NCBI GenBank assembly: GCA_958496175.1
Contig: OY292277.1
Span: 6,076,001 to 6,140,000, forward strand
Direction of reading: 5' to 3'
DNA length: 64,000 nucleotides
Source: Sisyra terminalis
Taxonomy: Eukaryota > Arthropoda > Insecta > Neuroptera > Sisyridae
The number at the start of each line of letters is the position of its first letter. The first letter of the stretch is position 1. The translations under genes were made by a program, and so were the position numbers. Shown here one piece after another: positions 1,655 through 57,010 of the stretch. Below the pieces are notes generated by a model. The model was not told the origin of the DNA. It was given only the letters and a program-made list of their open reading frames with translations, and did no database searches.

Positions 1655-1697
1655 GCCCAGATACGTATTTCGATTGCCAAACAATTTTCTTCAGTGG
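1655..1697 (-). ncRNA. Hammerhead-ribozyme-like motif, family A, left copy
   Basis: Read on the minus strand: CCA, then CTGAAGA, one extra A, a degraded stem II (ATTG...CAAT), GAA, the self-complementary ATACGTAT, then C, then TGG which pairs with the initial CCA. The layout is that of a minimal type I hammerhead. Activity is unproven and stem II has mismatches here. Confidence 0.4.
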
Positions 1698-2778
1698 TCA
1701 TCAAGTACCAAGATATATTCTATATATTGTATACTAGACTGATTCAACAAAAATGATGATTTTTTTTTCTTAATTATATCGAAAATATTGTTGGAAATGG
1801 CAAAAAAAAATCCTGTGAAAATTTAAACTCTTAATATTAATATTTAGAGGTACCGCATCGCAGATTTCGATTTTCCATTTAAATAATATGGGAACAATAT
1901 TCTCTTGAACTTTGGAATTTTATAGCTTGCGTTTATAACAATATTTCGGAATGACTAAGTTATATTTTTGTAGAAAATTGAACGATTTACAAAAAAGGTC
2001 TCGGGAAAATTTTTAATATATTTATTCCTTCAAAAGTTATTCGAGGTCAAAATTGAACTAAAGAGAAATTTTAAAATTTTTTCAATTTATTGACGCAAAC
2101 ATCAATTTTATGAGAAAATTTTATAGTACATTCTTTGTAGAGTACTTTTTTTTCTTTAAATTATCTTTATAAAAGTTTTTGATATTTTTCACAGGTCCTA
2201 AGTTATTTGCATTAAACTGAAAATTCCCTGAATTATTATATTTTTAACAAATATTTTTTTTATTTTAATTAAATAACTTAGAACTTGTGAAAAATATCAA
2301 CAATTTTTATAGAGATAAGTTATAGAAAAAAAGTGCTCTACAAAAAATGTCCTATCAAATTTTCTCATAAAATTGATGGTTGTCTCAAAAAATTGAAAAA
2401 ATATTAAAATTTCTCTTTAGTTCAACTTTGACCTCGAATAACTTTTGAAGAAATAAATATATCAAAAACTTGTACGAGACCTTTTTTATAGATCGTTCAA
2501 TTTTCTACAAGAATATACCTTGGTCATTCCGAAATATTGTCACCAACGTGAGCTATAAAATTCCAAAGTGCAAGAGAATATTGTTCCCATGTTATTTAAA
2601 TGGAAAATCGAAATTTGCGATGCGGCACCTCTTAATATCAATATTAAGTGCTTAAACTATCACAGGATTTTTTTTGGTCATTTTCAACAAAATTTTCGAT
2701 ATAATTAAGAAAAAAAATCACCATTTTTTTTGAATCAGTCTAGTATTTAATATAAAGATTATCTAGGCACTTGATAAC

Positions 2779-2820
2779 TACCGAAGAAGATTGCTTGGAA
2801 ATCGAAATACGTATCTGGGC
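2779..2820 (+). ncRNA. Hammerhead-ribozyme-like motif, family A, right copy (degraded)
   Basis: Inverted partner of the motif at 1655-1697. The core reads CCGAAGA instead of CTGAAGA, and stem II has one change (GATTGC against GAAATC). GAAATACGTATCTGGG is intact. The altered core suggests this copy would not cleave. Confidence 0.35.
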
Positions 2821-3829: not shown

Positions 3830-3940
3830 AGTTAAAAAAAATAGATGATAAAATTCAGATCTCAGTTTTTATTAAATAAGAAGACAATTCAAGTTGTTTA
3901 AGATTGTTTTTTTTTATTAATTTTTTTTAATATTCAAATT

Positions 3941-3980
3941 AGCTACGTTTCGTTACGTATCGCAACTTCCTCTGACTTCT
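3941..3980 (-). ncRNA. Hammerhead-like motif, family B copy 1, left (degraded)
   Basis: On the minus strand the arm reads AGCTACG and so on inverted. GAAACGTAGCT and the GTTGC...GTAAC stem region remain. The CTGATGA core is changed to CAGAGGA, so cleavage is unlikely. Confidence 0.3.
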
Positions 3981-4284
3981 ATAAAAAATTAAAATAAATG
4001 ATTGACATATTTTGTAATTATTTTAATATTTAAAGAAAGATTTAAAGACAGATCAATGTTCAACGATCGATTATAAGAAAATGGTTGGTTCTGCAAAAAT
4101 TTATCATTTTAGCTTTTTTGTTGAGCATTAAATTTTCTTCTAGAATATTTATTTTTAAATACTTTAAAATTTCTTTTGCCCAGCCTAGAGTACCGTCTTT
4201 ATGGGTATACGAGAAAACATAACAAATTACAAAAAAAAATTTATTGAATTTAAATTGAAAATATTAAATTTTGTGTGATTCAAG

Positions 4285-4322
4285 AAGCCTGATGAAGTTA
4301 TGATACGTAACGAAACGTAACT
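4285..4322 (+). ncRNA. Hammerhead-like motif, family B copy 1, right
   Basis: AAGC, CTGATGA, extra A, stem II GTTA/TAAC, then GAAACGTAACT. The core is intact. The 3' side of stem I has changed (ACT instead of GCT), so stem I is weakened here. Confidence 0.35.
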
Positions 4323-4401
4323 AATTTGAATAATAAAAATTATTAAATAAAAAAACCGATCTTAAACAACCTGAATTGTCTTCTTATTAGTTAAAAAAAA
4401 T

Positions 4402-5385
4402 GATCTAAAGACATAAGAAAAATGGATGAATTCCAGGATATCTTAACTAATTTTTTGATATCATCTTGCCAGTAATAAACTACGTTTGTCTGGTTAAAAA
4501 AAAGTTTTTCCAAGATATACCTAAAGGCTAAGGCAATACTTTAAAATTCACCATAAGAATTGTAGGGCAAAGCTTCTCAAACTGTCAATATATGTACCTC
4601 TTCTTCCTTGTCATATAAATTGAATGATTCATTGAGGTAATCGAGATATTTTGTTGGTAGCCACTGCTTTACAAACAAATTATTTTGATCTCAGATAAAT
4701 ATAAAAAATGATTTCAAAGTTCAATTTTCAAAAATTAAGAGATCTCTGGAGAAAAATGTGGCCAAATTTAAGAATCACTACTGAATGGTATAAGGAATCA
4801 TTCTTAAAAAAAACTATCCTAAGTTACCACCTCTTTTTGTTATTCGATACTGTAACACTTTGAAGCTCTTCTTCTCTTGATGGAGGTCCCTAGTTCTTGA
4901 AAATTTGTCCCCAAAAAAAATATCAATTTTCTTCATAAATCGTTTACGAATAAAATTGTACAACCTAGATATTCATTTTCCGAAGTTTTCCCCCCCTGAT
5001 GTCTCACTATATTACTTTTTCGGAACCGTTTTCATTCCTTTTACTCTTAAAAAGGATCCTTAGTGTCATTTCGAATTGTAGTTGAGCTTTTTTTTCAATA
5101 GGGGTCACTACTGGCTTTTACATACCAGCTATCCAAAATTCATCTATACATGGGACCAGAAAATATTTAAATGAAATACTAACATTTGGTTTCCCTAATA
5201 AGAGAGGAAACCTACGTATGCAACCTTAAATTAGGTGATAAAATAAGGGCATCAAGATAAATGAAAAGAGAGTTCTTCTTAAGTTCTTCTCCAGAAAGTC
5301 TATGATATGATTTATTAATCTTAAGTCACAAGTCGACGGCTTAGGAAATCAAAACATCATAAAATTAGAAATTAATAACAAAAAT
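4402..5385. other. Unique AT-rich sequence, no gene seen
   Basis: No repeat relationship or coding signal noticed. Confidence 0.4.
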
Positions 5386-7920: not shown

Positions 7921-7997
7921 CAAATTTTTTTAAATAAGAAGACAATTCAGGTTGTTTAAGATCGGTTTTTTTATTTAATACTTTTTACTATTCAATT

Positions 7998-8035
7998 AGC
8001 TACGTTTCGTTACGTATCGTAACTTTATCAGGCTT
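7998..8035 (-). ncRNA. Hammerhead-like motif, family B copy 2, left
   Basis: On the minus strand: AAGC, CTGATAA (canonical CTGATGA with one change), A, GTTACG/CGTAAC stem II, GAAACGTAGCT. The G-to-A change in the core suggests reduced or no activity. Confidence 0.35.
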
Positions 8036-8094
8036 CTTGATTCACAAAAAATATTTTCAATTTAAATTCAATAAATAAATTTTTGTGAATCAAG

Positions 8095-8132
8095 AAGCCT
8101 GATGAAGTTACAATACGTAACGAAACGTAGCT
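8095..8132 (+). ncRNA. Hammerhead-like motif, family B, best copy
   Basis: The parts are AGC (8096-8098, stem I), CTGATGA (8099-8105), an extra A (8106), GTTAC (8107-8111) paired with GTAAC (8117-8121), GAA (8122-8124), self-complementary ACGT (8125-8128), A (8129, the H of NUH), and GCT (8130-8132, closing stem I with AGC). All minimal hammerhead parts are present except for the extra A and the loop-less stem III. Palindromic or very short stem III is known from hammerheads thought to act as dimers. Activity is not shown by sequence. Confidence 0.5.
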
Positions 8133-8239
8133 AATTGAATAGTAAAAAAATATTAAATAAAAAAACCGATCTTAAACAACCTGAATTGTTTTTTTATTTA
8201 AAAAAATAAAAGCTGAGATCTGAATTTTATCATCTATTT

Positions 8240-15679: not shown

Positions 15680-18540
15680 AAAGGGGTGGAGGGAATTTTC
15701 TTATTTTTTTTTCAAAAAAGGGTCGGAAGGGTTGCTAAACCTCGTAAGCTCAAAAATTTATTATGATTTTTTTATAGGTTGCTTTTGGGAGGAAATTTTC
15801 CAAGCCTTTTGATGGCAAAACTTGTTGCCAAAAAAGATATGCAATATAAAATTTGTGCAATTGAAAATATTCAATAAAAATGCCAACATGGTGAGGGATT
15901 TTAGTACTCTCCAAAAAAAAATAAAAGTAGGGATAATGATGATCCTCAAATTTTGTAAGCTCAAAAGTTTATCATGGTTTTTTTGTTTTATATAATTTTG
16001 CATATCTCTTCTAAGATACTTAAAGAGGGAGGAAAAAAGGGAGTAAAATGATAGACGAAAAAATATGACTTACAAATTTTGGTCATAGAGTAGGAAGGGT
16101 GGCTTTCAGGAGGAAGTTTTCCAAACCTTTCAATGGCAAAACTTGTTGCAAAAAAAACAATTTTTATGCCAAATAAAGTCTTCAAAATGCCGATATGGTG
16201 AAGGATTTTAGTCTTTTCTGAGGAAAGAGAAGTAAGGAAAACTCTATTTACCTGGCATATTTCCAGAGTATTTTTTTTTCAAAAAATGACTGAAAAATTT
16301 GTCAAATCTTGTAAACTCAAAAGTTTATCTTGGTTTTTTTTATTTTATATACTTTTGCATATCCCACCTAAGATCCTTCAAGGGGGACGAAAAGGGATAG
16401 TGAAATCATAGACAGAAAAACCTACTCACAAATTTTGGTCTTGGGGAAGGGGAGGGTGGCTTTTGAGAGGAAGTTTTCCTCATTTTTTGACGGCAAAACT
16501 GGTTACAAAAAAATCAATTTTTATGTCAAATAAAATCTTCCCAATGCCAACATGGTGAGGGATTTTAATCTTCTTGGAGAAAAAGAGGAGTAAGGAAAAC
16601 TCTATTTTCCTGGCATATTTCCAGAGTACTTTTTTTTTCAAAAGAGTGAAAAATTCGTGAAATCTTGGAATTTCAATGGTAATTCTTTACTTTAATATTG
16701 TTTTGCATATCCCACCTAAGATCCTTCAAGGGGGAGGAAAGGGGAGAGTGAAATCATAGGCTGAAAACCACGACTTACAAATTTTGGTCTTGGGGTAGGA
16801 AAGGGTGGCTTTCCGGAAGAAGTTATCCAAACCTTTTGATGGCAAAAGTTGTTGCAAAAATAATCAATTTTTATGCCAAATAAAATCTTCCCTATGCGAA
16901 CATGGTGAAGGAATTAAGTCTTATCCGAGGAAAAGAGGAGTAAGGGAAACACTATTTTCCTGGCATATTCCTGGCAAAATATGTTTTTTTTAAAAAGATT
17001 GAGAAATTTTTCGAATCTTGTGAACTCAAAAGTTGATCATAGTTTTTCTTTCCTTTAATATTGATTTGCATATCCCACCTAAGATTCTTCAAGGGGGAGA
17101 AAAAGGGATACTTAAATCATAGGCTGAAAACCACGACTTACAAATTTTGGTCTTGGGGTAGGAAAGGGTGGCTTTCCGGAAGAAGTTATCCAAACCTTTT
17201 GATGGCAAAACTTGTTGCAAAAAAATTAACTTTTATGCCAAATAAAGTTTTCAAAATGCCGATATGGTGAAGGATTTTAATCTTCTTCGAGGAAAGGAAG
17301 GATAAGGAAAGCTCTATTTACCTGGCATATATTCAGAATATTTCTTTTTTCAAAAAAAAAAAAAAAAACAAGAAATTCGTCAAATCTTGTAAATTCAAAA
17401 GTTTATCATGGTAATTCTTTACTTTAATATTGTATTGCATATCCGTCCTAAGATATTTCAAGGGGAGAAAGGGGTAGTGAAATCATAGACAGAATAACAT
17501 GACATACAAATTTTGGTCTTGGGGTCGGGAAGGGTGGCTTTTGGGAGGATGTTATCCTAATTTTTTGACGGCAAAACTAGTTACAAAAAAATCAATTTTT
17601 AAGCAATTGAAAGCTTTCGCAATGCCAATATGGTGAGGGATTTTAGTTTTCTGCGAAGAAAAGAGGGACAAGGATAACTATATTTTCCTGGCATATTTGC
17701 AAAAAATCAATTTTTATGCCAAATAAAATCTTCCCAATGTCAACATGGTGAGGAATTTTAATCTTCTTCGAGGAATGGTGGGATAAAGAAAACTCTATTT
17801 ATCTGACATAATTCCAGAAAATTTTTTTTTTCAAAAAAACAATGAGAAATTCGTCAAATCTTGTAAACTCAAAAGTTTATCAGGTTTTTTTTTTGCTTTA
17901 ATAAAATTCTATTCCCATATAAGATCCTTCCAGAGAGAGGAAGGGGATTGTAAAATCTCAAAGGTAAAAACATGACTTCTTAGTTTTGGCCATGGAGAGG
18001 GGTGAGTGACGAATGGGAGGAAGATGATTAAACTTTTTGAAGTCAAAAGCTTCTTAAAAGAAATAAATCAATTTTTATTCAATGTAAGCATCGCACTACA
18101 AACATGGTGAGGGATGTTTAACCTTCTCCAAGGAAAAGGAAGAAAGAGGATTCTAATATCCTTGTTTATTTCCAGATTATTTTTTTTTTTCAAAAAAGAA
18201 ATGGGAAATTCAGCAATCCTTATAGACTCAAATTTATTTAGTTTATTATGGTTTTATTTCTTTAATATAGTATTGCATATCTCACCTAAGATCCTTCAAA
18301 GGGGAGGAAAAGGGGAGTAAAATCTAAAAAAAAAAAATATGACTTCTTAATTTTGGCCAAAAGGCGAGGAGAGCGGTGGTGAAGAGGAATTAAGTGAAAC
18401 TTTTTGATGGCAAAAACTTGATTCAAAAAATAAGTCAATTTTTTTTTAATGTAAGATCTGCTTAATGCCAACATGGTGAAGGATATTTCTTCAAGGAAAA
18501 AAAGAGTAAAGAAGACTCTATTTACTTTCTATATTCCTGT
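15680..18540. repeat. Satellite array, unit about 360 bp, about eight units
   Basis: The anchor 'ttttggtc' or 'ttttggcc' lies near 16081, 16437, 16786, 17149, 17515, 17988 and 18355, a spacing of 349-367 bp except for one of 473 bp. Each unit contains 'gatggcaaaacttgttgc', 'tcaatttttatgccaaat', 'aacatggtgagggatttta' and 'ggcatatttcc'. The 473-bp interval is explained by a partial duplication around 17700-17810. First and last units are the most diverged, as is usual at array edges. It could be centromeric or pericentromeric, but so short an array may simply be a local tandem block. Confidence 0.92.
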
Positions 18541-20030
18541 ATGGTTCCTCAATCTTTTTTTACCACCGGCCTAATATAACCAGTTTTGGTAACCAGTTAC
18601 GATTTGCCATGAGTAAATTAATCAAGATTTTGATTTTAAAGTTATTTAATTTAAAGGTAAACAAGTGATTAGCAAACCCCTTAAGTCGTTGCCAGTAATT
18701 GATCAATTGATTGATTTATTCAATTTTATTGTTTTGTTTAATATGAACTGACTAAATAATATGAACTGAAAGCTACACCCCTTCCCCTCTTGCTAGCAGA
18801 ATTAAGTCAGAATTTTCCAAGTATGAACAAATATTTCTTTTGAAATCCACAATGAGGAACTCTTCAATGGCTAATATTTTTAAAGCTTATTTTAGACAAC
18901 AAATTGTTTTTTTTTTTGCTGGTTTTCCCATGAATAAAATTCAGGTAACGCCAATGCTCCCCCTTACACTTTCATCTACCAATTATTCTGTATTTTAATT
19001 CTTATATTTTTGGTCAAATTTTGAGCAAAAATAAAACCAATTTTTAAAGGAAAAACTAATAAAAATTTGTATGAAATTTCTATTTGTGTAAAAGATGGAC
19101 AACCCTGAATACTACAAACATGATTTTTAGGCATACAATTAGCCACTTTAAAAATTAAACCGATTAAAAACCCGTTAATCTCTCATCCTTAGTATTATAT
19201 AATCATATGTACCCAAACCCACTTGAAAAGTCGAAAAAAAAATTATCTTTGATGTTTAAAAATCGTTGATGTTTCCAAATCTAAATCATTATCTCCGGAT
19301 GATTCCCCGAGTAAAATAGCTGCAGAAAATTGTGCAAAGTTCTTAGTGAATTTCGATGGTTTATCTAAAGATTTATCTTCGCCTGAAGAATAAAGGTATA
19401 TACATACATTGCGTAACTCTTCAAATTGTTAAATATATGAATGATGCTGTCCAAGCGTGAGAAATTCCCTATCATTTAATTGAAAACCGAAAATGTTATC
19501 TTTCGTTACAAATAATAACAAAAAAAACTTCCGCTTTGTGGTATTTTTTTAAAAATTTTTTATCTCTCATTTATTTCGTCTTAAAAAATAAAAAATAATA
19601 CAAAAATTGGCAAAAACTCCAAATTTATGTTCAACTTTCATTTCAGGGATTCCAGGACTTATACTTTTGAAAATAAAATAATGATAATTATCGAAAATCA
19701 ATTTAAAAAAACCTTTTCCCATTTTTCTAATTTAATATCAATCAATCATCTGATTGATATCTGACGCTGTTTTCACATCAAAGAAATTATAAGTCTGTTG
19801 GACCAATTTTTCAAAATTGGCGATTATTTGATTGATTTAGTACAAAATATGCGTATGGTAATTGAATGGATCAGTGGGGAGAGCTGCGTGCACTTGTCTC
19901 GCGTCATCTTCATAGTGGTCCCAATTAAAAGTGCAGTTATTTTAATTTTTTCAATCAAAACTTTACGTAAAAGTGCATAAAGTGTTAGTGCAAATAGTGA
20001 TCTATCGATTGTGCAATTTTTTTTTCATTG
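18541..20030. other. AT-rich sequence, possible promoter side of the next feature
   Basis: No repeat recognised. 19850-20030 has mixed composition. TCAGTG at 20031-20036 resembles an insect initiator, and TATCGATT near 20003-20010 resembles a DRE site. Both motifs are short and could be chance. Confidence 0.25.
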
Positions 20031-20990: not shown

Positions 20991-22351
20991 TTCGAGGATT
21001 TTATAAGTCGTCGTTATATTTATAAAGTTCTTATACAGAAATTTTTGCATCCCAAACAGCAAAAATACATTTTAATGCAGTTTTTGTGCCAAGAATGTTT
21101 TTATGAGGATTACGATTTATAAATAAAAATAGATAATAGAATTATGGATGAATTTGTTACATTGAAAATCCATTTTAATGCAGTTTTTGTACTGAAAAAG
21201 TTCGTCAAAAGTTTTGCATTAAAATTATTTTTTTACGGTTTTTAAGCGTTCAAAGTAACATTTTTAAAGATTCATTGAAAATATGCATAGATAATAAACA
21301 ATAAAAATGCATTTTAATGTAATTTGTGTACTATGAAAGTTGGGCTATAAGCTCAAAGAAATAAGCGACAGAATATTATTTAGTTCAACTTTTCTAAGTT
21401 TGCTCTATATTATGTAACTATATGATTTTCGAATAAGGAAATTTGATCAAGTATGAGAGTTTATTACACCAGTGCTTCCCAACATTCCATTGAACTTGTT
21501 CAAATTTTGAGTAAATCGATTTATAAGGTTTATATTTTCTGTCTTATAATTGCAGTTCTTATACAGAAATTTTTGCATCCCAAACAACAAAACTACATTT
21601 TAATGCAATTTTTGTGTCAAGAATGTTTTTATGAGGATTACGAATTAAATCAATTTGTTTTATGTATTTTAAGTGCAAATTCTAACAAACTTTCTTACAA
21701 ATAAAAATGGATGAATTTGTTACAATGAAAATGCATTCTAATGCAGTTTTTGTACTGAAAAATTTGTTCAAAAGGTAAGCATTAGAATGCAAATCATTTT
21801 TTTTATGTTTTTTAAATTTAAAAAAAAAGTGTAATGAAAATTTCGGTTTGTTGAAAATGGACTTAAAATTTTTTTGATAAAATTTATAAGTTGCAAACAT
21901 TTAAAATGCATTTGAATGCAATTTGTGTTATATAAAAGTTTGAAATAGTCTTAAGGATGAACAACTGATTATTATTTAACTCAACTTCTATAAGTTTCCT
22001 CTATACTTATTATGGTATAATATTCCCTTAGCAACATTTGGTTTCGTATGGAAATTTTCTAGACCAGTGCTTCCCAACATATGAATAACGTCCCATTGGA
22101 ATTCTTTAAATTTTAAATAAATCGTTTGATTAAATGTAGTAGCTGTATAAAATTTCTAATACTCTAGAAAAAGCACAAAAATTTCGGAATGATGTAGATA
22201 AAGCACAGCTTAAACATTTTTGGAAGCACCGAACTATCTCCTTTCTATCCTTTTTCAAATGAATAACAAATGGTTAAGAGTAAAATCCAAAAGTTGATAA
22301 TTCTATAGAACTTATACGTTTTTTGCCTTTTAGTTGCATTTTTTTTTACAA

Positions 22352-22358
22352 ACATTTG
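22352..22358 (+). repeat. Target-site duplication, left copy (acatttg)
   Basis: ACATTTG here and at 22777-22783 flank the foldback element. The homologous point in the last array unit (near 23410-23416, 'acaaatttg') has no insertion. Confidence 0.65.
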
Positions 22359-22527
22359 ATCAAAATAAATTTTTTTCGCGGACTTTGAACAGTTATACTG
22401 TGTATACAATATATAGAATATATTGTGGTCCAATTTATGTAGTATAATTTAATATAATAATATATAAAAATCATATCATAAACATAAATTTGAACAGAAG
22501 TTCAAACAAAAATATTCATGACGTATT

Positions 22528-22570
22528 GCCCAGATACGTATTTCGATTGCCAAGCAATCTTCCTCAGTGG
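22528..22570 (-). ncRNA. Hammerhead-like motif, family A, best copy
   Basis: On the minus strand: CCA, CTGAGGA, extra A, perfect 6-bp stem II GATTGC with TTG loop and GCAATC, GAA, self-complementary ATACGTAT, C, TGG closing on CCA. This meets the minimal hammerhead core except for the inserted A before stem II. Cleavage would fall after the C that follows ATACGTAT. Activity is not shown. Confidence 0.5.
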
Positions 22571-22597
22571 ATACGGAGTGATCCAAATTACTTGATA

Positions 22598-22640
22598 ACC
22601 ACTAAGGAAGATTGCTTGGCAATCGAAATACGTATCTGGA
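22598..22640 (+). ncRNA. Hammerhead-like motif, family A compact copy, right (core mutated)
   Basis: Inverted partner. Stem II GATTGC/GCAATC and GAAATACGTATCTGG are intact, but the core reads CTAAGGA. Probably inactive. Confidence 0.35.
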
Positions 22641-24080
22641 CAATACGTCACGAATATTTTTGTTTGAACTTCTGTTCAAATTTATGTTGGCGGTATGATT
22701 TTTATATATTATTATATTAAATTATACTACATAAATTGGACCGCAATATATCCTATATATTGTATACACAGTACAGACATTTGGTTTTTCAATGAAAATT
22801 TTGTGTTTCAAACGATAAAAATGCATTTTAATGCAGTTATTGGACCAAAGGAGTTCTTAAAATGATTTGGATTTAAATAATTTTATTTTAAGTATTAATT
22901 CGAACAAACAATTCAATTTGTTAAAAACGGAGTTCAAACATTGGATTAAATTATGCGTTTCAAACGTTTAAATTGCATTTTAATGCAGTTTGTGTTATAA
23001 AACTTTGGCTATAATCTAAAGGACAAACAATATTTAATCATTTAATTCAACTTCTATAAGTATTCTTCTGTTTTATGATATACGTAACTATATAATATTC
23101 CGTTGAGTATTCTTATGAAAAGTTATCTAGACCAGTGTTTCTCAATGTGTGGGTTACCTTTAATCGATCTTCTTTAGATTTTCGAGAAATTAGAAACCAA
23201 ATTTATATAACTATGAAAAATTTCGTATGCACTGGAAAAGCCTTCAAGTTTCAGAAAGGTATAGGAAAAGCACAGCTCTAAACATTTTAGGATTCACTGG
23301 ACTATCAAATTTCCCTTCATTTTCAATAATATAAAATATTAAATGGATAAAATTCAGGAACTGATTTTTACTGTGAAACGTTTACTTTCTCTGCCTTATA
23401 CTTTCATTTAAAAAACAAATTTGGGTTTCCCAATAAAATTTTTGCATCCCAAACAACAAAATTGCATTTTGATGCAGTTTTTGGTATAAAATAAAGTCTT
23501 ATAAGGATTGAGTTTAAAGTAATTTAATTTAAGTATAAATTCTAACAAACAATTCTAATAATTGAAAATAGAGTCAATACTTTTGATAAAATTTATACGT
23601 TTCATGCTTTGAAAATGCATTTTAATGCAGTTCATGTACTACGAAAGTTGGGCGTTAATTTTAAGGATAAACAATAGGGCTTAAATTAATTTTTAATTTT
23701 CAAAGAATTTAAGAAAAAAAATCTTAAAAATAATTATTCCCTCTTTTCTATGCACTTTTATTAATTCATTGGGACTTCTTTTTCTCTCTTTTTAAATCCT
23801 TATGCAATTTTTTTAGTTCATTACCCAAAGTCTCCCCAATAAAATGATATTGATAACTATTTAAATTTTCTTTTGAAGTTTTTGCCACTCTAGAAGTTTA
23901 GATGTATCCTTTACCTCCTTTTTGAGGAAGGATAAATTGTATTATTACTATCGGAAGTATAAGTTTACTTGATGAACCTACAAAAATAGCTTATTTTTTT
24001 TCATTTACTTTTGGGCTTCCTTTTCTTATGTAAAACTAATAATGCATTTAATTATCTGATTGCAAAATTTTCCCTTTTAA

Positions 24081-29401: not shown

Positions 29402-30824
29402 TTTCATCAATCAGTGGTTGATTTATCTGAAGGTTAAGCATTTTTTAGGAAATAACGTATTTTACAATGAAATTTCTCTAAAAATAAATTAGACAACTTT
29501 TCTTCTATGAATAAAACACTGAGAATAAATCCTTCAACAAATTGTAGTAATCACTTGGCGTTGTATTATTGAGCTCTACAATGATAAGAAAAACAGGTGT
29601 AATATTGATATGGATTTAAATTTTTATCAAACAAACACACGTAAGCTAGTGATTACGCTATCCCACAGCAATTTATGATAATTGATCACATTCGCAATAA
29701 TTTTTTTTTTCGTCAACGCAAAAATAATTTTTCATCTCAAAACTATGCTCGTTTACGTGCCACTTGCAATTAATTCCCAAATAAAGTTCACTAGTTTCAG
29801 TGCTTTAGTTTCCAATAGTTTGTTATATAAAACAGTGTAATAAAATTGCTAAATATCCAACAAAAAAATAACTCATTTTTGTTTGTATAAAATTGTGTTG
29901 AGAAAAATCAGCCAAAATGTGTTTTGTAAGGAATAAGAAGTTGCTGGAACGTAAAAAGGATAATTCGAAAAAGGATACCAAGGGTATGTGCAAAAAATTT
30001 TTTTATAAAACCCCCAAGAAAAAAATTTATTAGGAATACATTTTCAAAGGATTGCTTCACAAGTGAATAAGTCTGTTATTGCGTCTTATCTGAGAAAAAA
30101 AAATAAATAAAAAAAATTATCGTCAATATTGATAAGACATTTTTAAATATTTTTCTTACGGATTACATTTGAAACTGCTTGATTTTTAATGGATTTTTTT
30201 TTACACACTGTGATATTTATGGCCCAATTTTTACACATAAAGAAATTACGATCATTTATATTTATCTAAATGGCAAGGTTTCATCGATTATTGATCAAAT
30301 TTCATGTGAAAACTGTAAATTTTCTTTTTTCATCTAAAATTAACTTTAAAATTTTGTGTGAAATTCAGATCTTTTAAGCTTTTCTAGGAAAATTTAAGTA
30401 TCAAGTCAGCCCTGTAAAGTTAACTTGTTATTGACAAAACATTTGGGAAACGTATTATTTCTAATCTATGCTCTTAATTCTTGTAGGTCACTGATTTTAA
30501 CGATAAACTCCATTAAAGTTACTCAGATTATTGAATCAAAAAAAAAAACTTTTGAGGTTTTATAGAAGAAATCATGTGTTAAGTTGGCCTTGTAAAGTTA
30601 TCATACTATGGATGAAACGTTGCTTACAATAAATGACTTTAAAGCTTTGTTTTGATTATCTTTTCTTTCATGAGAGAAAAAATTAAATGTATTTTTTCTT
30701 TATCTTTGAAATAAGTGAAGATAATTCTAAGCTTGAGGTGTTTTTATGAAAAATTTATTATTTTAGTAAAAAACCACCTGTCAATCTCAAAAAGCTACTA
30801 TTTATATGACCAAATTAGATTTTT
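29402..30824. other. AT-rich sequence, no gene seen
   Basis: No repeat match or coding signal noticed. Confidence 0.4.
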
Positions 30825-30970
30825 TCGCTGACTTTGAGCAGTTATACTGTTTAAACAATATATAAAATATATAAAATATATTTTGGTCTTTTTTATGGAC
30901 TATAATTTACAAAAATAAACAATAAACAAAAATTTGAACAAAAGTTCAAACAAATATAATTTAACGTATT

Positions 30971-31013
30971 GCCCAGATACGTATTTCGTTTGCCAAGCAA
31001 CCTTTCTCAGTGG
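30971..31013 (-). ncRNA. Hammerhead-like motif, family A copy 3, left
   Basis: Minus strand: CCA, CTGAGAA (one change from CTGAnGA), A, GGTTGC/GCAAAC (five of six pairs by position, one mismatch), GAAATACGTATC, TGG. Probably degraded. Confidence 0.35.
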
Positions 31014-31071: not shown

Positions 31072-31114
31072 CCACTGAAGAAGATGGCTTGGCAATCGAA
31101 ATATGTATCTGGGC
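31072..31114 (+). ncRNA. Hammerhead-like motif, family A copy 3, right
   Basis: CCA (31072-31074), CTGAAGA (31075-31081), A, GATGGC/GCAATC with one mismatch, GAA, ATATGTAT (31101-31108), C (31109), TGG (31110-31112). The core is intact and stem I pairs. Confidence 0.45.
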
Positions 31115-52904: not shown

Positions 52905-52961
52905 TTTGAACCGTTTACTTTGAAAGTGAGTTAAGTCCATTTCAAGAACAATCCCTATAGT
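52905..52961 (+). repeat. Dispersed repeat H, interrupted copy
   Basis: 'cgtttactttgaaagtgag' through 'acaatccctatagt', where family B copy 3 begins. Repeat H resumes for only a few bases after the insertion. Confidence 0.75.
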
Positions 52962-53342
52962 AGATGATAAAATTCAGATCTCAGCTTTTATTTTTTTAAA
53001 TAAGAAGACAATTCAGGTTGTTTAAGATCGGTTTTTTCAACTTTGACCTCGAATAACTTTTGAAGGAATAAATATATCAAAAACTTGTCCGAGACCTTTT
53101 TTGTAGATCGTTCAATTTTCTACAATAATATACCTTGGTTATTCCGAAATATTGTCACCAACGTGAGATATAAAATTCCAAATTGCAAGAGAATATTGTT
53201 CCCATATTATTTAAATGGAAAATCGAAATTTGCGACGCGGTACTGATAAAATCCAGATCTCAGCTTTTATTTTTTTTAAATAAGAAGACCATTTAGGTTG
53301 TTTAAGATCGGTTTTTTTATTTAATATTTTTACTATTCAATT

Positions 53343-53380
53343 AGCTACGTTTCGTTACGTATCGTAACTTCATCAGGCTT
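53343..53380 (-). ncRNA. Hammerhead-like motif, family B copy 3, left (intact core)
   Basis: Minus strand: AAGC, CTGATGA, A, GTTACG/CGTAAC stem II, GAA, ACGT, A, GCT. All parts match the best copy at 8095-8132. Confidence 0.5.
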
Positions 53381-53422
53381 TTTGATTCACAAAAAGAAAA
53401 TATTTTATTTTTGTGAATCAAA

Positions 53423-53460
53423 AACCCTGATGAAGTTACGATACGTAACGAAACGTAGCT
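53423..53460 (+). ncRNA. Hammerhead-like motif, family B copy 3, right
   Basis: CTGATGA, A, GTTACG/CGTAAC, GAAACGTAGCT are intact. The 5' side of stem I reads ACC instead of AGC, breaking one pair. Confidence 0.45.
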
Positions 53461-53821
53461 AATTGAATAGTAAAAATAATAAATAAAAAAAAAACGATCT
53501 TAAACAACCTGAATTGTCTTCTTATTTAAAAAAAAAATCCTATAGTGTTATAATTTTCGGGTGGCACATGAAATTGGGGCGGCATATGGATATTGAAAAT
53601 TCCATTTTTATATAAGTAAAGATTTTACCAATTTACTTGATTAATGATGAAAACAAGAGAGGCGGAAAATTGAAAATTTTCGATCGGTCCCGGGCGGCAA
53701 AAATCCACGCTATGCCCCTGATCTTTGAATTAATATACATCAGCGGGCGGAGAACCGGGGTAAATTACTCCAAATGAAGTAAAAATGATTTATTTTTTTT
53801 TGGGTAATAGGGAAATTATTT

Positions 53822-56439: not shown

Positions 56440-57010
56440 CGAGAAATGAAGTTTATTGCTAATATTGAGCAAAGTATTTAAGAAATGCCGTCTTGCGAGA
56501 AAAGTATTGGAACTTAATGGAAAAAGTCACCTACCGAATCATCAGTTTGGATTCAGAAAATTCCACTTTTCAATTGAGCAAGTTTACAGAGTAATAATAC
56601 GTAACAGATTGCCTGGAAAACAAAAAATTCTAGTCTGCGTCTTTGCTAGATATTTTTCTAGCTTTTTATAAGGTGTGGTGTCGAAAATTGCTTCATAAAC
56701 TGAGAAGAGGTGTATCAAAAGACTATTGTAAGGATTTTGAATTTTATCTAACAGAAAGAAGTTTCCAAATCAAGCAAGGAGAAGTAGCGAGTGGCTTAAA
56801 ATGGATTAAAGCCAGTTTGCCCTTTTGTATTTCATTTACATGGCTGACCTTCTAATTATTGAAGAAGTTTTCTCGGCTACTTACGCTGACGACATTGCAC
56901 TGATGGCAGTAAAAAATGATCTGGTGAGGGATCAGGTATCATCTGGATCATTAGGATCAGATATCATTCTTAACAGAATACTGTAGGTGGACTGACTAAA
57001 AATCATTGAA
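56440..57010 (+). pseudogene. Jockey-type non-LTR retrotransposon reverse transcriptase, broken fragment
   Basis: Frame-shifting translation gives successive RT blocks in the right order: LILSKVFKK, LPNHQFGFRKFHFSIEQV, LDIFLAFYKVW, YLTERSFQIKQGE, a KAS piece, LLYFIYMADL, and TYADDIALMA (YADD at 56882-56893). These match the palm of Jockey-clade RTs. At least two frameshifts are needed. A deletion between KAS and LLYF removes the usual VPQGS...GP block, and the aspartate region reads FYKV for FDKV. No endonuclease domain, tail or target duplication is seen. It abuts the mitochondrial segment at about 57015. Confidence 0.85.

Follow-up and report, generated by a model that had tools for sequence, protein, structure and literature searches.

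Three foldback elements within the 64,000-nucleotide stretch of DNA analyzed here (the window) carry a motif resembling a hammerhead ribozyme in inverted pairs, which raises two questions: whether the motif is a hammerhead, and what kind of element carries it. Judged by its sequence, the motif is real and hammerhead-class, with an additional A separating core base A9 from stem II. The segment at 22359-22776 (element 2) is very probably the insertion of a Penelope-like element (PLE) without its coding part, consisting of two head-to-head pLTRs that each have a minimal type I hammerhead-class motif. The label "foldback family" used in an earlier note on this DNA is not retained; the foldbacks are truncated Penelope-like retrotransposon insertions and do not form a separate family.

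Read on the minus strand from 22570 down to 22530, the sequence is CCA-CTGAGGA-A-GATTGC-TTG-GCAATC-GAA-ATACGTAT-C-TGG, which bears out the hammerhead-like layout described earlier for 22528-22570. The parts of this family-A motif are a CTGANGA core, the extra A, a stem II hairpin, GAA, the self-complementary ATACGTAT, C, and a stem I of 3 bp. Inverted pairing in three elements was likewise found, with six copies forming the pairs 1657/2778, 22530/22599, and 30973/31072 (Table 1). The extra A and the GAA occur in all six. Other parts of the description apply to some copies only: the perfect 6-bp stem II is found at 22530 and 22599, and the other four copies have one unpaired position each; the CTGANGA core is intact in three copies and reads CCGAAGA, CTAAGGA, or CTGAGAA in the rest; and the palindromic stem III said to persist is GAAATACGTATC in five copies, with GAAATATGTATC in its place in the copy at 31072.

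Table 1. Motifs, elements, and repeats in the window. E-values are from model R1, which was built from families B, C, D, F, and G, so that family-B scores include a training sequence.
Feature	Position	Strand	Remarks
Element 1, left-arm hammerhead-class motif	1657-1697	-	core CTGAAGA intact; first stem II pair broken
Element 1, right-arm hammerhead-class motif	2778-2818	+	core CCGAAGA
Element 2, hammerhead-class motif	22530-22570	-	core CTGAGGA intact; extra A at 22560; predicted cut between 22533 and 22532
Element 2, hammerhead-class motif	22599-22639	+	damaged core CTAAGGA; extra A at 22609
Element 3, left-arm hammerhead-class motif	30973-31013	-	core CTGAGAA
Element 3, right-arm hammerhead-class motif	31072-31112	+	core CTGAAGA intact; one stem II mismatch
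Element 2, 418-bp PLE stump, two head-to-head pLTR copies	22359-22776		ends by eye from target duplication
Element 2, left target duplication ACATTTG (7 bp)	22352-22358		read by eye
Element 2, right target duplication ACATTTG (7 bp)	22777-22783		read by eye
Long (tailed) outer end of left pLTR copy	22359-22400	-	long 3' end class; right copy without it
Family B inverted pair	3941-4322		motifs 3941-3977 (-) and 4286-4322 (+); E=1.3e-7, 1.5e-8
Family B inverted pair	7998-8132		motifs 7998-8034 (-) and 8096-8132 (+); E=4.2e-10, 5e-12; 8099 in strict scan
Family B inverted pair	53343-53460		motifs 53343-53379 (-) and 53424-53460 (+); E=1.1e-11, 1.2e-9; 53376 in strict scan
Family B inverted repeats	3839-4410, 7924-8239, 52954-53546		one copy with CCTATAGT on both sides (by eye)

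Descriptor scans and genome-wide counts bear on whether the resemblance arose by chance. A strict descriptor, which demanded an undamaged core with at most one inserted base, a stem II no shorter than 4 bp, A15.1-U16.1, and a 3-bp stem I, found three sites in the window, compared with 14 in total (mean 0.035) in 400 dinucleotide shuffles. A relaxed descriptor that tolerated a single core mismatch and up to two inserted bases found seven sites, compared with a mean of 0.18 and a maximum of three in 300 shuffles. All seven have one inserted A, and all lie within two unrelated inverted-repeat families (A and B). Throughout the genome, the pattern CTGANGAAG-(8 to 20)-CGAAACGT, which corresponds to CTGANGA-A-[stem II]-CGAAACGT (ACGT-type), has 8297 matches, and its reversed control has one. 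Searches with Rfam hammerhead models, a check proposed in the earlier note, gave no match in the window at the gathering threshold and none at E<=10 on four single stretches; this result and the damaged cores of half of the window copies would fit a chance resemblance. The shuffles and the reversed control speak against chance, and covariation of the stems across families contradicts it, leaving it with a negligible probability.

Covariation in stem II was assessed in the 100 listed of the 8297 matches, which all lie within the initial 6.5 Mb of contig C1 and contain 43 distinct stem-loop segments. At stem II pairs 2-4, which the pattern leaves unfixed, 120 of 129 cells are paired; permuting the partners gives a mean of 67.4, and none of 20000 permutations reaches the observed value. 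Reduction to 15 group representatives, a crude cut in which three groups look like one lineage, leaves 43 of 45 inner pairs intact against 24.1 expected. An alignment of five families (A4) has 97.9% of cells paired and a covariation of 0.983 compared with 0.213 when shuffled, and covariation is destroyed when the partners are slid; these figures rest on few sequences, because A4 has six hand-chosen rows, two of them from family C, and families A and E were left out of it as well as of R1. A first alignment of seven families, in which family A was misplaced, was discarded. Among distinct stem I triplets, a set that includes decayed family-A variants, 45 of 60 cells are paired (28.9 when permuted) and 8 of 20 triplets are fully paired. 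The covariation of stems I and II across families supports reading the motif as a type I hammerhead. Within family A, most stem II changes are decay that lacks compensation (in 69 unselected arms, 16 cells are broken, 8 are paired variants, and 385 are unchanged), so the expectation of compensatory change is borne out between families and not inside this one.

The same 69 family-A arms show which bases vary. The hammerhead core (CUGANGA...GAA...A15.1-U16.1, H17) is present in the family reference and in most arms, with 27 changes in 827 cells, and its divergence is slightly below that of the flanks (3.3% vs. 4.8%). The N of CTGANGA (N7) is off-reference in 22 arms (G 47, T 17, A 4, C 1), and the extra A is changed in none. 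Besides N7, the only sites with more than seven changes in the tabulated nt 34-119 are those of a CpG at nt 100-101 (52/67 and 16/68). A fixed extra A together with a variable N7 would be expected of an RNA core in which a single base is free.

The extra A is nearly universal beyond family A. The ACGT-type pattern without it has 18 genome matches (control, one), so that a canonical core with no base inserted before stem II is rare here; by eye, 12 of the 18 have G in place of the extra A and three truly lack the base. A relaxed scan of both strands of the fetched loci (549 kb) gave 145 sites, of which 143 have one inserted base, one has two, and one has none, and further motif families appear among them. 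In one fetched locus (L067, near 298), a hammerhead-class motif has T as its extra base, with ACGCGT as stem III and a stem I of 5 bp. We call the motif a hammerhead-class variant and not a canonical member because of the extra A, yet an active natural exception exists: the plus-strand hammerhead of chrysanthemum chlorotic mottle viroid is active with an extra A10 between A9 and G10.1 (PMC3705267). That case is a single viroid RNA with other stems, whereas the motif described here belongs to an animal genome and to a sizeable group of retrotransposons. Other insertions in hammerhead cores are described in PMC3088659.

Family B is unrelated to family A and has the same extra A, its motif being AGC-CTGATGA-A-GTTACGATACGTAAC-GAA-ACGT-A-GCT. 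In the ACGT-type families, neighbors within 1 kb among the 100 listed matches are head to head in 23 cases, tail to tail in two, and in the same direction in one. Model R1 finds six family-B sites in the window but no family-A site at E<=10. A further R1 match at 19380 (E=0.039) was rejected; its GAA is not in place and it looks like chance.

Folding and database searches include results that do not favor a ribozyme. In the isolated motif, the hammerhead helices have -6.1 kcal/mol compared with -11.6 kcal/mol for the best fold. An element-2 transcript is predicted to form a strong hairpin (-259.1 kcal/mol, vs. -41.3 and -47.3 kcal/mol for its arms), and the hairpin of an inverted pair can bury the motif. 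At E<=10, the whole foldback gave 12 Rfam matches, of which eleven are to microRNA models and one is to a Plasmodium RNA, as expected of a palindrome. An 18-mer had three matches in prokaryote genomes, in unrelated records, and a 22-mer had none in viral contigs.

The identity of the carrier is indicated by the sequences next to family-A units. A 22-base family-A word has 9711 matches (4849 + 4862) at up to two mismatches in the genome (376.6 Mb, 11 contigs), and its reversed control has none. Open frames in several fetched loci resemble the RT and GIY-YIG parts of Penelope-like elements. In Pfam searches with three ORF pieces, the first matched RVT_1 (E=0.012) and GIY-YIG (E=0.047) and the second matched GIY-YIG (E=3.6e-4), all below the gathering threshold, and the third had no match. 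The ORF has 321 relatives among proteins at E<=0.001, with identity up to 45% among the best 120 listed; these 120 mostly have PF00078 and PF26215, some have PF01541, and the named ones are nearly all from insects, which suggests that the host is an insect. Every fetched locus with the C-terminus of the PLE ORF, defined as reaching residue 137 or beyond of the L115 piece, has a same-strand family-A unit beside it (16 of 16). The unit lies 55-63 nt downstream in 14 of these and at 43 and -21 nt in the other two. Family A is the 3' pLTR of a PLE because it adjoins the ORF C-terminus in all of these loci. Joining of an RT and GIY-YIG ORF to the repeat applies to the family and not to the window's own stumps; the window has no match to the PLE ORF pieces at E<=1e-6.

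Two side observations concern the coding region. Loci L065/L066 have a second, divergent GIY-YIG ORF lineage at 502-1002, adjoining a family-A pair. In L107 (957-1298), the PLE frame seems by eye to continue into the unit and to end some 20 nt short of the hammerhead.

The arrangement and ends of family-A units were compared in 235 non-redundant units from 123 loci, which were drawn from 39 places (44 high-identity rows) and from 100 places listed on the first 10 Mb of contig C1. Neighboring units within 400 nt (n=105) are head to head in 91 cases, in the same direction in nine, and tail to tail in five. By their BLAST ends, complete 3' ends fall mostly into two classes, near nt 219-225 (short) and at nt 256-260 (long). 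Both outer ends could be classified in 68 of the 91 head-to-head pairs, with 23 unclassified. One short and one long end are present in 63 of the 68, two short ends in four, and two long ends in one, an excess of mixed pairs with binomial P=4e-14 against even odds (62 of 67 once one duplicate is removed). A tail of 30-40 nt on one pLTR, a PLE trait, is thus present in those mixed pairs. Of the 68 classified pairs, 47 are flanked by target duplications measuring 7 bp or longer, vs. 3% in a control in which flanks of different elements were compared. The longest shared flank word varies from 3 to 14, with a mode of 12. Single-arm insertions without a neighbor account for 29 units (13 short-ended, 10 long-ended, and six unclassified).

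DNA transposons require matching termini. A foldback or MITE-type DNA transposon, in which inverted repeats happen to hold a hammerhead look-alike, would account for the long inverted arms with short spacers and for small non-coding elements with target duplications. Its termini should match, and this reading is contradicted because the outer ends are unequal in nearly all classified pairs; the variable length of the shared flank word, the PLE ORF that precedes the unit in every locus with its C-terminus, and the occurrence of single-arm insertions also argue against it. We regard such a transposon as highly improbable.

Arm ends were also compared with the predicted cut. Only one of 106 unselected arms starts there, and arm ends do not pile up at this position. 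In the sample of 235 units, only 91 are able to show such a start because 144 hold the 22-base word, which spans the cut. A model with self-cleaved RNA as the usual template was dropped because of this count. The count agrees with the Anolis PLE, for which cleavage is reported to be unneeded for insertion in vitro (PMC11167929).

Metazoan retrozymes, which are non-autonomous and spread via circular RNA from paired direct hammerheads, are similar in being short type I hammerhead repeats with thousands of copies in animal genomes (PMC7229834), and PLEs are suspected as their helpers (PMC7229834; PMC7761336). Those repeats are direct and in tandem, whereas the pLTR pairs here are inverted, with few same-direction neighbors; the units follow a PLE ORF, and the near absence of arms starting at the cut also counts against a retrozyme, which is an improbable carrier.

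Alternatively, the motif could be conserved for some other reason, for example as a binding site of the PLE protein, and be a ribozyme no longer. The dispensability of the Anolis hammerhead for insertion in vitro, the lack of pile-up at the predicted cut, and the Rfam results would fit this reading, but a core that is kept while its stems covary and only N7 is free is a pattern unexpected for a protein site. We consider it unlikely.

A PLE with a hammerhead in its pLTR agrees with what is described of GIY-YIG PLEs of the Penelope/Poseidon type: an ORF with RT and GIY-YIG, inverted head-to-head pLTRs, a tail of 30-40 nt on one pLTR, short target duplications, and a pLTR hammerhead, identified here from sequence (PMC3846280; PMC11167929). 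In rotifer Penelope, the pLTRs are inverted and one of them bears a 31-bp tail, target duplications measure 8-10 bp, and captured spacers are described (PMC3846280). In the Anolis PLE, which also has a hammerhead, two adjacent internal RT start sites define the tail, and both target strands are cleaved and extended (PMC11167929). The elements described here differ in that many copies consist of two pLTRs only, the motif lies in the pLTR just past the ORF end, the core has the extra A, and target duplications are mostly longer (mode 12) than 8-10 bp. Minimal type I hammerheads of PLEs and Terminons share the core, the short stems, and a stem III that is either very weak or palindromic and so would suit dimers, and dimer action through stem III was proposed for other PLEs (PMC7761336; PMC6466107). 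The difference is the extra A after A9, present here in nearly every copy of the counted pattern.

The observations establish the identity of the family, its architecture, the two end classes, the target duplications, and the covariation; from them we infer the order of priming as well as RNA cleavage and dimerization. The PLE endonuclease would make a staggered cut, most often of about 12 bp, and each cut end would serve as a primer for reverse transcription of PLE RNA, the two ends using different start sites approximately 38 nt apart. The two cDNAs may reach different upstream points and then join head to head. The resulting inverted pair would have a tail on only one of its outer ends, a short junction of unrelated sequence, and a target duplication. 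Where both cDNAs are short, pLTRs alone would remain, as in the foldbacks of the window. The ribozyme would belong to the PLE RNA, with cleavage of that RNA as its presumed role, probably as a double hammerhead via the palindromic stem III (ATACGTAT in family A, ACGT in other families). A dimer within one transcript of an inverted pair is impossible because only one motif per strand is in the sense orientation. Since pairing between its sense motif and its antisense arm is possible, the stump itself is probably a dead end.

Hammerheads, inverted pLTRs, and tails are already known from PLEs, and the new part is the near-universal extra A10. Within the literature searched, which lay apart from the primary descriptions of PLE hammerheads and was available in part, the extra A in PLE hammerheads is not mentioned. 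More tentatively, and with less than even confidence, an A10 that is all but obligatory across about a dozen stem II lineages, together with cooperation of two RNAs through a palindromic stem III, might define a fixed PLE hammerhead class in this genome, and each inverted insertion might reflect a fixed division of labor between the target strands, the inner start site serving one and the outer site serving the other, perhaps with two RT subunits holding their templates differently. A genome with this many family-A and ACGT-type pattern matches and clear covariation amounts to a natural mutagenesis of the core, and it suggests that a large retrotransposon group has kept an insertion which the literature searched describes for a single viroid. 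The combination of a short with a long end in paired arms can be counted and constrains PLE priming of both target strands, which biochemistry is only starting to describe. The in vivo activity and role of PLE hammerheads are called a mystery in a review (PMC7761336).

Element 2 has these features in the window itself. Its arms (22396-22582 and 22587-22773) have 93% complementarity, and the left arm exceeds the right by about 38 nt. At the left end, 22354-22400 matches element 3 at 30804-30849 (85%), so element 3 shares the longer left end. Target duplications of elements 2 and 3 and of family B were read by eye; element 3 has only a 6-bp candidate and element 1 has no clear duplication. The empty insertion site of element 2 is visible by eye in a neighboring array copy near 23400. 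The array itself, at 21026-23676, is an old, diverged tandem array (units 67-75% alike) interrupted by element 2.

Other repeats were observed in the window. The spacer of element 1 (1736-2744) holds a separate inverted repeat with ends ACTAGACTGATTCA, and a similar piece lies inside a family-B left arm near 53034-53243 (both by eye). Open frames at 56450-56852 resemble, by eye, what we take to be reverse transcriptase fragments of a jockey-type LINE. A tandem array of about 4.9 copies with a period of about 357-366 bp occupies 15946-17704.
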